This document shows, piece after piece, positions 1,910 to 4,752 of a stretch of 43,152 nucleotides of DNA. The stretch comes from Bacteroidales bacterium. Its GTDB lineage: Bacteria > Bacteroidota > Bacteroidia > Bacteroidales > UBA932. Location: NCBI GenBank assembly GCA_024402095.1, contig JAKSJU010000007.1:1-43152 (forward strand). The letters run 5' to 3'. Positions within the stretch are counted from its first letter, which is position 1; each line of letters opens with the position of its first letter. A program made the position numbers and the translations under genes. The notes beneath the pieces were generated by a model. The model had not been told where the DNA came from. It saw only the letters and a program-made list of their open reading frames with translations, and ran no database searches.

Positions 1910-2503
1910 CTATAGGTATTTCACCGTCTCCGACAAATCCCTGTAGGAACTGTGGTTGCTTGAAGGCTCGGAAATCTCCGACGGATATCCGAAAGGCATA
2001 AGCAGCACAGGATGTATGTTTTCAGGGAGCTGAAGTGCCTCCACGAGCTTTTCAGGGTCGTAATATCCTACGATACATGTACCGACTCCCAGGTTCTGAG
2101 CCTCCAGCATCATATGGGTGAGCACTATTGTGACGTCAATGTCGCCATAATTGCCAGAAGCACCTCTTCCGGCAACATTTTCATCATTGTAACAGAACAC
2201 AAAGCACTGGGGAGCTCCGTAGATGCATGGGGAAACTTCATTGAGTTTTGCCATAACATCTTCGGATTTAACAACGTATACCATCTGCGGCTGTGAGTTC
2301 ACGGCTGTCGGGGCAATCTGTCCTGCACGTATGATTTTGTCAATGATAGACTGGTCTACCGGAGTAGAGTCAAAACTACGGACCGAATATCTTTCAGCTG
2401 CAAGTTCGAGAAAATCCTTTGTCATGTTCTCTGTCTGTGGATTACGGCCGCATGAAGAAAGCAGGAGAGCTGATGCGGCGACAATTAATAGATAAGGTTT
2501 CAT
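1910..2503 (-). CDS. Nitroreductase-family lipoprotein
   Basis: The product is 197 residues. Residues 1-18 are a lipoprotein signal ending in LLLSSC, so Cys18 is the predicted lipidated residue and the protein should sit in the periplasm on a membrane. The rest is a compact FMN-dependent nitroreductase fold: the N-terminal RYSVRSFDSTPV segment is typical of the family, APTAVNSQPQ follows near residue 70, and the C-terminal half carries the GVGTCIVGYYDPEK segment. Such enzymes reduce nitro or quinone compounds with NAD(P)H, but most are cytoplasmic, so the lipobox is notable. It is the last gene of a long minus-strand run and overlaps the upstream HepT-like gene by 4 bp (ATGA), which implies coupled translation. 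The substrate cannot be inferred. Confidence 0.85.
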   Translation of the reverse strand: MKPYLLIVAASALLLSSCGRNPQTENMTKDFLELAAERYSVRSFDSTPVDQSIIDKIIRAGQIAPTAVNSQPQMVYVVKSEDVMAKLNEVSPCIYGAPQCFVFCYNDENVAGRGASGNYGDIDVTIVLTHMMLEAQNLGVGTCIVGYYDPEKLVEALQLPENIHPVLLMPFGYPSEISEPSSNHSSYRDLSETVKYL

Positions 2504-2904
2504 TTATTTTGGTTTGTGGTTAATTTACCGGATTCAAGGTCTGAAAGCATCTTTTCGATTGTAGTCTTCAGCACAGGGATATCTGTCCTGATAGTATTGA
2601 ACAGGGCTTCAGAATCCGCATCAATATACTCCCCTTTCAACACATCCCCCATACCGAAAACAGATTTCCACTGTACCTGTCCGTAGGATGAGAAGACAGA
2701 CTCGGTGGCAATCTGCTTTATTCTCTTGAAGTAATTGGACAAATATATCAGGCTCATGCCGCAGGCACGGAAGACAGTGCGTCCGAGCAGGGTTTCCGTC
2801 AGGTCTTCAGGAGAACTGATAGAGACAGAAATCTGATCCATGAACTCAATTTCAGAAAGGCAATGCTTCAGGTATGCGGAAACTGTTTGATTATTATTCG
2901 ACAT
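2500..2904 (-). CDS. HepT-like HEPN protein lacking the RNase motif
   Basis: The product is 134 residues and helical. It fits the HepT/DUF86 (HEPN) layout: an N-terminal helix (AYLKHCLSEIEF), a central helical stretch, then WKSVFGMGDVLKGEY and a C-terminal helix with TDIPVLKTTIEKML that closely mirrors the HepT ending. In active HepT toxins the signature is R-x4-H-x-Y. Here the matching positions are Gly86, Gly91 and Tyr93, so Arg and His are gone and the Tyr is kept. RNase activity is therefore unlikely. The gene overlaps the upstream XRE-MNT gene by 11 bp and the downstream nitroreductase by 4 bp. The family call is my own alignment by eye. A neutral alternative is a conserved helical protein of unknown function. 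Confidence 0.7.
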   Translation of the reverse strand: MSNNNQTVSAYLKHCLSEIEFMDQISVSISSPEDLTETLLGRTVFRACGMSLIYLSNYFKRIKQIATESVFSSYGQVQWKSVFGMGDVLKGEYIDADSEALFNTIRTDIPVLKTTIEKMLSDLESGKLTTNQNK

Positions 2905-3400
2905 CTTCTATTATATAATTAAAGGCCTTCCCGCTGTGTGAAAAACGGGAGGAAGATTCCGGTATAAGATATACTTTCTGCTTGATAACAGACTCAAGGG
3001 AAGATTTCAGTTCGGCGTACAGATAAATGCTCGGCTTTTTCATTCGGACCATTATTTCCAGAACTCCTTCTTCTGAAGTATCCTGACCGTCATCCGGCAG
3101 CAGCAGCGCAAGGCGAACAAGCCCGAAATGATCTGAATTGTATTTTTTGAAAAGGCCCAGAAGATACATCAGGCGCTGCTTCGCTGTGGAAAGAGAAGAC
3201 AGTCTGTCCACGACCTTGAGCTCAACGGCATAGCCCATCGCATCCAGAAGCCTGTCGACAGTTTCCTCGCTGCCGAGCTGGCCGCTCTCCATCTTGCAGA
3301 CCTGGGACTTTGTCATGCCGGAAAGTAGGCCGAGCTGTTCCTGCGTAAGCTTTCTGCTCTTTCTCAGAGACTTGATCAATTCCGCCGTTGATGATTTCAT
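2894..3400 (-). CDS. XRE HTH protein fused to a degenerate MNT domain
   Basis: Residues 5-58 are a Cro/C1-type helix-turn-helix (LTQEQLGLLSGMTKSQVCKM). Residues about 88-146 follow the minimal nucleotidyltransferase (MNT) pattern: a strand LVRLALLL, then the place where GSxxRGEATxxSDIDL is expected, then IMVRMKKPSIYLYAELKSSL and KVYLI. The nucleotide and metal motif G-S-x10-D-x-D is absent; the aligned residues are L-P at the glycine-serine position and V-L-E at the D-x-D position. This is the usual antitoxin partner of HepT, here apparently inactive as an enzyme but with a DNA-binding domain. The start is taken at ATG 3398-3400 because a TACCTTCG box lies just upstream. A longer in-frame ATG at 3437-3439 would add 13 residues. 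The pair sits directly downstream of rimO. Confidence 0.7.
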   Translation of the reverse strand: MKSSTAELIKSLRKSRKLTQEQLGLLSGMTKSQVCKMESGQLGSEETVDRLLDAMGYAVELKVVDRLSSLSTAKQRLMYLLGLFKKYNSDHFGLVRLALLLPDDGQDTSEEGVLEIMVRMKKPSIYLYAELKSSLESVIKQKVYLIPESSSRFSHSGKAFNYIIEDVE

Positions 3401-3405
3401 ATCTG

Positions 3406-3413
3406 CGAAGGTA
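3406..3413 (-). promoter_or_regulatory. Possible -7 box before the XRE-MNT gene
   Basis: On the minus strand TACCTTCG differs from TAnnTTTG at one base. It ends 5 bp before the ATG at 3400, a spacing seen for other genes in this window. If real, it would allow the XRE-MNT, HepT-like and nitroreductase genes to be transcribed separately from rimO. Confidence 0.35.
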
Positions 3414-3444
3414 AATAAAGTTTCACAGATATGCAACATCTACA

Positions 3445-4752
3445 CTAAATTATCTCTGCCCTCAGATCGTAATAATCGGCCTCAGTAATACGTACGTTAA
3501 GGAAATCACCCACTTTCACTCCCTCAGCGGCAGGAACTATAATTTCTCCGTCAACTTCAGGGCTTTCATGCTGCGAACGGCAGACAAGGTATCCGTCACC
3601 GATTGCATCGACAAGCACTCTCTCCTCGTCCCCGACCCTCGACAGGTTGTACGCAAGGGATTTTTCAGCCTGCAATTCCATCAGTGCCTCGTACCTGCTC
3701 TGCTTGACATCAGCGGGAACATCGTCTATAAGATGTTCTGCACCCCAGGTGCCTTCCTCTTCCGAATACTGGAAAGCTCCCAACCTTTCAAAACCGGCGG
3801 ACTTGACGAATTCAAGCAATTCATTGAATTCCGTCTCCCCCTCTCCGGGATGACCTACTATCATCGTAGTACGGAGTGATACCCCGGGTACTTTCTCCCG
3901 CATGCGTGAAATAAGTTCTCTTGTCCATTTCCCGTCAACGTGCCTGTGCATATTTGAAAGAACTTTGTCAGAAATATGCTGCAGTGGGATGTCCAGGTAT
4001 TTGCATACTTTAGGATTGTCAGCCATCTGTTCGAGTACATCCTCCGGGAAATCATCAGGATATGAATAATGGATCCTTATCCATTCAAGGCCATCAATTC
4101 CGGAAAGTTTTTGGAGAAGCTCGGCCAGACAACGCTTACCATAAAGATCCAGGCCATAATAGGTCGTATCCTGAGCAATAAGTATTATTTCCCTGGCTCC
4201 TTTCCTGACAAGTTCGGTAGCTTCAGAAACGATATCCTCCATAGGGACAGACCTGTGTGCGCCTCTGATATGCGGAATGGCGCAATATGAGCATCTTCTG
4301 TCGCAGCCTTCGGACACTTTGAGATAGGCATAGCTTGCAGGCTCGAAACGCCTTTGGCCGGCATTCTTCCCGTTAAGCCGCACCTTGAACTCATCAGCAA
4401 TCCAATCTGCTACAGGTCGCAGGTCACGGGCACCGAACCAGGCATCGACTTCCGGGATTTCCGAAGGCAGTTCGGACGAATACCTCTGGGACAGACAGCC
4501 GAATACAGCGATTCTGTCTATTTCCCCATCATTTTTACGTGCCACCGCGTCGAGTATCTTCTGTATGGACTCTTCCTTGGCGTCACCGATAAATCCGCAG
4601 GTATTGATCAGCAGACAGTTAATATGCCCACTGACGTCATCAGTAATTTCAAAAGCATCTTCCGGCAGCATTGCCAGGAGATGCTCTGTATCAACTGTGT
4701 TTTTTGAACAGCCTAAGGTAATGACGCTAAGCCTCTTCCTGCTGCTGTTCAT
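3445..4752 (-). CDS. rimO: Ribosomal protein S12 methylthiotransferase
   Basis: This radical-SAM enzyme adds a methylthio group to an aspartate of ribosomal protein S12. The 435-residue length is normal. The N-terminal UPF0004 domain carries the three cluster cysteines Cys15 (GCSKN), Cys52 (NTCGF) and Cys86 (GCLSQ). The radical-SAM motif CxxxCxxC is Cys150, Cys154 and Cys157 in EGCDRRCSYCAIPHIRG. A TRAM-type RNA/protein-binding domain forms roughly the last 65 residues. RYSSELPSEIPEVDAWFG is the RimO-type rather than MiaB-type neighbourhood. The start overlaps the upstream DUF5606 gene by 26 bp, and the gene belongs to the long minus-strand run starting at nusB. Confidence 0.95.
   Translation of the reverse strand: MNSSRKRLSVITLGCSKNTVDTEHLLAMLPEDAFEITDDVSGHINCLLINTCGFIGDAKEESIQKILDAVARKNDGEIDRIAVFGCLSQRYSSELPSEIPEVDAWFGARDLRPVADWIADEFKVRLNGKNAGQRRFEPASYAYLKVSEGCDRRCSYCAIPHIRGAHRSVPMEDIVSEATELVRKGAREIILIAQDTTYYGLDLYGKRCLAELLQKLSGIDGLEWIRIHYSYPDDFPEDVLEQMADNPKVCKYLDIPLQHISDKVLSNMHRHVDGKWTRELISRMREKVPGVSLRTTMIVGHPGEGETEFNELLEFVKSAGFERLGAFQYSEEEGTWGAEHLIDDVPADVKQSRYEALMELQAEKSLAYNLSRVGDEERVLVDAIGDGYLVCRSQHESPEVDGEIIVPAAEGVKVGDFLNVRITEADYYDLRAEII

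Follow-up and report, generated by a model that had tools for sequence, protein, structure and literature searches.

An XRE-MNT/HepT-like gene pair without catalytic residues in a Bacteroidales genome, and its possible persistence as an autoregulatory DNA-binding pair

What keeps both genes of an MNT-HEPN type pair open once the active sites of both products are gone? The question is raised by a locus of a Bacteroidales bacterium (assembly GCA_024402095.1, contig JAKSJU010000007.1), from which a stretch of 43,152 nucleotides, referred to as the window, was analyzed. The first-pass annotation of this DNA had proposed that the pair was repurposed, for example as a DNA-binding regulator with a helical partner. 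The features concerned are the following:

1910-2503, minus strand (2503..1910): nitroreductase-family gene with a lipoprotein-like signal, judged by eye
2500-2904, minus strand (2904..2500): HepT-like protein P0002, 134 aa, with R86G and H91G and with Y93 kept
2894-3400, minus strand (3400..2894): XRE-MNT protein P0001, 168 aa, with a conserved HTH (residues 1-63) and an MNT region (residues 64-168)
3406-3413, minus strand: -7-like box TACCTTCG, one mismatch against TAnnTTTG
3420-3437, minus strand: operator-like dyad GTTGCATATCTGTGAAAC, counterpart of the family element GTTGCATAWWTATTAAAC
3445-4752, minus strand: radical SAM/TRAM gene (Pfam Radical_SAM, UPF0004, TRAM_2), the insertion boundary

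Gene layout and homology of the pair

The XRE-MNT gene begins 44 nt past the radical SAM/TRAM gene, which we take to be rimO, and on the same minus strand. Its ORF overlaps that of the HepT-like gene by 11 nt, and the order, an MNT gene with a HEPN gene directly downstream, is that of type VII MntA/HepT systems. The start codon of the nitroreductase gene overlaps the HepT-like stop codon (ATGA), and this gene is probably co-transcribed with the pair. The overlap was considered as proof that the nitroreductase had been recruited, an idea that was dropped since comparable tight junctions occur behind other HepT genes of the family: among 39 other HepT loci, two further ones show a 4-nt junction at the 3' side of HepT and one shows a 10-nt overlap. 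In two other genomes of the genus (L036, L094), the end of HepT overlaps by 4 nt a downstream ORF whose start resembles a signal peptide. XRE-MNT/HepT modules may favor insertion at gene starts.

The rimO-like gene is the last of a conserved YbbR-coaE-DUF5606-rimO run. A rimO match was obtained in 40 of 47 genomes (own genome included), and 30 loci were taken, one being the window. All four genes are present in 27 of the 29 relatives' loci, and the remaining two start inside DUF5606. Conserved synteny of the inserted genes was rejected: none of the 29 carries the pair or the nitroreductase gene within roughly 1.5 kb downstream of rimO. Nitroreductase orthologues (best 62-64% identity) sit elsewhere, and neither the pair nor rimO lies near them in the nine best loci inspected; these came from 30 loci, the window among them, and the underlying search had matched 77 of 198 genomes. 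The arrangement of the locus is lineage-specific.

HMMs were built from 16 chosen relatives for XRE and MNT and from up to 14 for HepT, with the window sequence excluded. The window reached 57.8 bits in the MNT region (best shuffle 11.0), 131.9 bits in HepT (9.3), and 104.5 bits in XRE (13.3); of 2000 shuffles per region, 1897, 1826, and 1956, respectively, were reported. As judged from these sequence profiles, the homology of all three regions to XRE-MNT/HepT relatives is far above chance. General domain models recognize the proteins unevenly. P0002 matches the HepT-like family PF01934 (E 6.2e-8, 32.8 bits, cut-off 23.5), and the sole Pfam domain detected in P0001 is HTH_3 (PF01381; 30.6 bits, cut-off 23). 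The Pfam search did not find PF01909 in the window MNT; the same model matches a paralogue on contig C50 of the same genome. Residues 85-151 of P0001 match the PADLOC model PDC-S09 with E 0.018, compared to E 2.3e-22 for the C50 protein. The NCBIfam MntA/HepT models gave no match in the window, and matched C50 below their cut-offs. Profiles containing the window proteins match, by sequence, the structures 5yep (E 0.0002 and 0.0037) and 1wot (E 3.6e-8).

Scanned with PF01934, the genome holds just two HepT genes, that of the window and that of C50. The PF01909 scan returned C50 and a solo MNT gene on contig C1, and missed the window. The solo gene (L205, 1486-1800, minus strand; G000) encodes an intact MNT protein of 104 aa with no HepT partner detected by PF01934, and adjoins ORFs that, by eye, resemble a restriction endonuclease and an HTH protein. 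XRE-MNT genes were also seen in G110 and G349 (L059, L060), genomes in which the P0002 search of 400 genomes gave no HepT match and which contributed no HepT sequence to the identity comparison.

The C50 pair, about 51%/46% identical to the window pair (HepT 61/130 residues), is its closest relative among the sequences found. It is intact and carries GSFSRGEQNDESDVD and GMRNFLVHEY. In a tree of 14 sequences, the window groups with C50 and the C50 relative L055 with a support of 0.984, on a branch of 0.90 as against 0.06 and 0.08 for C50 and L055. The C50 module (L050) and the module of G232 (L055) are identical at 56/63 XRE and 90/104 MNT residues, and the RimO proteins of the two genomes are 63% identical, which suggests that the intact module has recently been transferred across species.

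Loss of catalytic residues and the search for further dead copies

For the residue comparison, the window proteins were aligned with the other distinct sequences of each family, 39 XRE-MNT and 38 HepT. These are ORFs on 104 loci that matched by blastp with E up to 1e-6; an XRE-MNT match had to reach query residue 130 to be included. The window MNT differs by G101L, S102P, D113V, D115E, and D144Y, positions that read G, S, D, D, and D in 39/39 other sequences. It thus reads L101-P102 and V113-L114-E115 where GSX10DXD is expected. The HepT-like protein carries R86G and H91G, with R and H in 38/38 others, so that RX4HXY is broken to G86/G91; Tyr93 is kept and is common to all aligned HepT sequences. 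Every residue named in the first-pass annotation (L-P, V-L-E, Gly86, Gly91, Tyr93) was exact on the alignment, and both HMMs and residues agree with its description of an MNT-HEPN type pair that has lost both active sites and retained XRE; D144Y is an additional loss. The role of the third Asp, at the position of D144, is known from the nucleotidyltransferase fold. An assembly error behind the lost motifs was ruled out by reasoning, as dozens of substitutions coexist with open frames.

Functional roles of the GS and DxD residues, the HepT R/H, and the Tyr are described in the available part of PMC7641770, where substitution of GS or DXD abolished the modification of HepT. By this analogy, it is very unlikely that the window MNT adenylylates its partner. 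Neither adenylylation nor RNase activity would be expected from the pair. The retention of Tyr93 had been called notable. It is indeed kept, but this is weak evidence: the residue is one of 26 kept among 44 conserved HepT positions, and adenylylation by the MNT protein of the same pair is hardly to be expected.

Other dead copies were searched for in four genome sets that overlap one another. P0001 matched 21/101 genomes (E up to 1e-3, own included, many in the HTH only), 42/400 genomes of the genus (E up to 1e-12, own included), 6/397 relatives of G232 (E up to 1e-28), and 22/198 genomes of the genus (E up to 1e-20, own included), the last set comprising genomes of at least 88% completeness plus the window's own genome at 84.72%; P0002 matched 19/101 and 43/400 genomes. 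No relative nearer than C50 was found in these overlapping sets of 101, 400, 397, and 198 genomes. A peptide-pattern scan of genome contigs (best 80 of 145 relatives) and two scans of viral contigs returned nothing beyond short, partial matches, most of them to the HTH, and a third viral-contig scan returned none. A second dead orthologue was not found among the matches inspected (which left out, for example, G265 and G274 of the 400-genome set), so conservation of the dead state cannot be shown. A conserved dead subfamily was rejected: all aligned relatives keep both motifs, and nothing in the sets searched is nearer than C50. Among the sequences seen, the catalytic loss is therefore confined to the window copy, and is lineage-specific rather than the mark of a conserved repurposed family. 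The literature search, which covered publications in part, found no report of a double-dead XRE-MNT/HepT pair.

Constraint by domain and the operator-promoter element

Rates, conservation, and codons were compared against the chosen 16 XRE-MNT and 14 HepT relatives rather than all 39 and 38. At 90% conservation, the window keeps 22/23 conserved positions in XRE, 10/25 in MNT, and 26/44 in HepT; at full conservation, it keeps 21/22, 8/22, and 21/35. Relative-rate counts against C50 used 14 outgroups (12 for HepT) that are related to one another and thus not independent. In XRE, the window shows 1-7 unique changes and C50 2-4, with p 0.18 or more for each of the 14 outgroups. In MNT, the counts are 28-40 for the window versus 3-11 for C50 (p 0.0012 or less, 14/14 outgroups), and in HepT 24-37 versus 5-13 (p < 0.05 in 11/12 outgroups, 0.073 in one). 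The direct Fisher contrast of XRE with MNT is weak (p 0.032 to 1; below 0.05 with 1/14 outgroups) because XRE changes are very few.

At codon positions 1/2/3, the window and C50 differ from the outgroup L056 by 40/30/68% and 43/30/67%, respectively, in XRE, by 56/35/74% and 33/23/68% in MNT, and by 50/34/69% and 31/19/62% in HepT, so that in the dead domains, too, the second positions have changed less than the third. We also fitted a codon model with two ratios, using a script of our own limited to 60 optimiser steps; the model averages over any earlier functional period. On the window branch, omega = 1 was rejected for MNT (p 8.2e-5) and HepT (p 2.6e-4), and XRE was borderline (p 0.052). Window and background omega could not be told apart (p 0.19-0.48), and the estimates of omega are unusable because the length of the window branch lies at its bound of 30. 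Neutral simulations to hand-chosen targets (63 or 55% identity for MNT, 73 or 65% for HepT) yielded 6.6-8.9% of runs without a stop for MNT and 7.4-13.3% for HepT, jointly 0.5-1.2%. A neutral XRE at 0.2 substitutions per site would retain about 41/63 residues (99.9th percentile 48), compared to at most seven window-unique changes observed. Averaged over window-unique changes, the BLOSUM62 score is -0.21 in MNT (P 0.07-0.14) and 0.03 in HepT (P 0.03-0.05), only a slight shift toward conservative exchanges relative to neutral ones, which are hardly more radical. Conserved HepT positions were lost more often when polar than when hydrophobic or small (p 0.032), and the same test gave p 0.41 in MNT. 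Taken together, MNT and HepT are best read as strongly relaxed but still under some constraint, and XRE shows no sign of this relaxation.

The element GTTGCATAWWTATTAAAC is common to the upstream regions of the relatives and, in 30 of 32 promoters, lies 6 nt before TAnnTTTG, the -7 box consensus of this phylum; these 32 distinct promoters were themselves picked by the TAnnTTTG pattern. The window promoter has the same arrangement, with GTTGCATATCTGTGAAAC followed after 6 nt by TACCTTCG. At 17.9 bits, GTTGCATATCTGTGAAAC is the top site on both strands of the window (next non-overlapping site 12.6), just under the lowest of the relatives' scores (18.6-31.4), on which the matrix was trained. Two features expected of an XRE autorepressor are present, an HTH_3 domain above cut-off and an own-promoter dyad conserved in relatives. 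The box TACCTTCG lacks the TTTG of all 32 relatives' promoters, a difference that is partly by construction as they were chosen by that pattern; the mismatch would count against full promoter activity. Seen across the genus, the element (3420-3437; upstream regions of L022 and L055-L104) appears to be a family-wide operator-promoter element of XRE-MNT modules.

In the genome, the palindromic operator pattern occurs at three sites (window, C50, and C7) and not at all in the reversed control. The third site (C7:25356; L207 near 1501), upstream of what is presumably an IMP-dehydrogenase-like gene from the start of its sequence, differs in its spacing to the promoter box. It was thus taken as a chance match, and a wider regulon was rejected. 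The window operator agrees with those of L056 and L057 at 16/18 positions each and with that of C50 at 12/18 (counted by eye), so cross-control with C50 is not suggested.

That close relatives retain both motifs had been named in the first-pass annotation as a sign that only this copy is decayed. The relatives do retain them, but mere decay does not follow, since XRE is constrained as in the intact copy, the operator is kept, and a window-branch omega of 1 is rejected for both MNT and HepT.

Explanations of the locus and known systems

The explanation that we favor, at a probability that falls just short of even, is that the locus holds a long-diverged, lineage-specific XRE-MntA/HepT copy in which both enzymes are gone and which survives as a DNA-binding pair regulating its own expression. 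The XRE domain would bind the dyad that has been retained in the spacer separating rimO from the XRE-MNT gene and thereby repress the promoter that overlaps the dyad, and this autoregulation would be what selection sees. The catalytically empty MNT and HepT-like domains, presumably no longer toxic, would serve at most as structural partners in a complex, contributing to dimerisation, stability, or the tuning of repression. Via the ATGA overlap, the same promoter probably drives the nitroreductase gene, whose level the regulator may set. Precedents exist for parts of this scheme: in the available text of PMC8406773, the Xre/MNT module of Streptococcus suis represses its own promoter, with downstream genes included in the authors' model, and both motif-less HEPN proteins acting without catalysis and the domestication of TA modules have been proposed in the part available of PMC3710099. 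Repurposing as a DNA-binding regulator with a helical partner is thus plausible, given the XRE constraint, the operator, and the omega test, but is unproven. A bolder version, in which the TA module has become a two-protein transcription switch with XRE and operator under selection, the enzymes as inert co-regulators, and the lipoprotein nitroreductase captured as cargo, appears unlikely.

The main rival, a decaying TA remnant, is well possible. Toxicity would have been lost first and both catalytic sites afterwards; XRE would trail them, either by chance or because autorepression is the constraint that goes last. That the window copy alone is dead among the aligned sequences fits this course of events, as do the strongly accelerated MNT and HepT, the near-neutral types of substitution, the eroded -7 box, the lineage-specific locus, and the small draft genome (1.33 Mb, 84.72% complete). 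Decay is harder to reconcile with two open frames, free of stops and frameshifts despite saturated third-position divergence, with the rejection of omega = 1 in MNT and HepT, and with an XRE domain showing no excess of change.

Action in trans on the intact C50 module is rather improbable. The dead proteins would bind the HepT or MntA of C50, or its operator, and damp the module in an anti-addiction or dominant-negative manner. C50 is the closest relative and intact, the operator pattern matches both promoters within the one genome, and some conserved HepT positions are kept along with Tyr93; against this, the window operator is nearer to those of L056/L057 (16/18 each) than to that of C50 (12/18, by eye), and at 61/130 identical HepT residues, cross-binding would require selection. 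It is very improbable that the pair still acts as a TA system with a non-catalytic, RNA-binding HEPN toxin that MNT neutralizes by binding only. Motif-less HEPN proteins were toxic in a genome-scale screen according to the available part of Anantharaman et al., 2013 (PMC3710099), but here the motif was lost in one copy while all other aligned family members keep it, and polar conserved HepT positions were lost more often (p 0.032), though the trend is not significant in MNT (p 0.41).

On the favored autoregulatory reading, the window pair is a modest, testable case of TA domestication that may be caught midway. The intact C50 module in the same genome is a natural control that allows gain or loss of function to be assessed for each domain separately, and the family-wide operator offers a defined DNA target for the XRE-MNT modules of this genus.

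Among known systems, Xress-MNTss of Streptococcus suis also links XRE to MNT, with repression of its own promoter reported there and proposed here; it differs in that XRE and MNT are separate proteins, that MNT is reported as the toxin, and that no HepT partner is mentioned in the available text (PMC8406773). The mannitol repressor MtlR resembles the HepT-like protein as a HEPN protein without an active site that is thought to be non-catalytic, and differs in that the available part of the source (PMC3710099) mentions no XRE-MNT partner; MtlR would belong to a family of long standing, in contrast to a loss of recent date. With type VII MntA/HepT (Shewanella SO_3165/SO_3166; PF01909/PF01934), the window pair shares adjacent genes with MNT first and HepT-like second, homology through intact relatives, and the Tyr of RX4HXY, whereas it lacks GSX10DXD and RX4H and has XRE fused to MNT. 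Closest are the intact XRE-MNT/HepT modules of the genus, such as C50, with the same domain order, similar lengths, the operator-promoter arrangement, and about 51%/46% identity; the catalytic residues are present in all aligned modules (39/39, 38/38), and the window pair alone has lost them.
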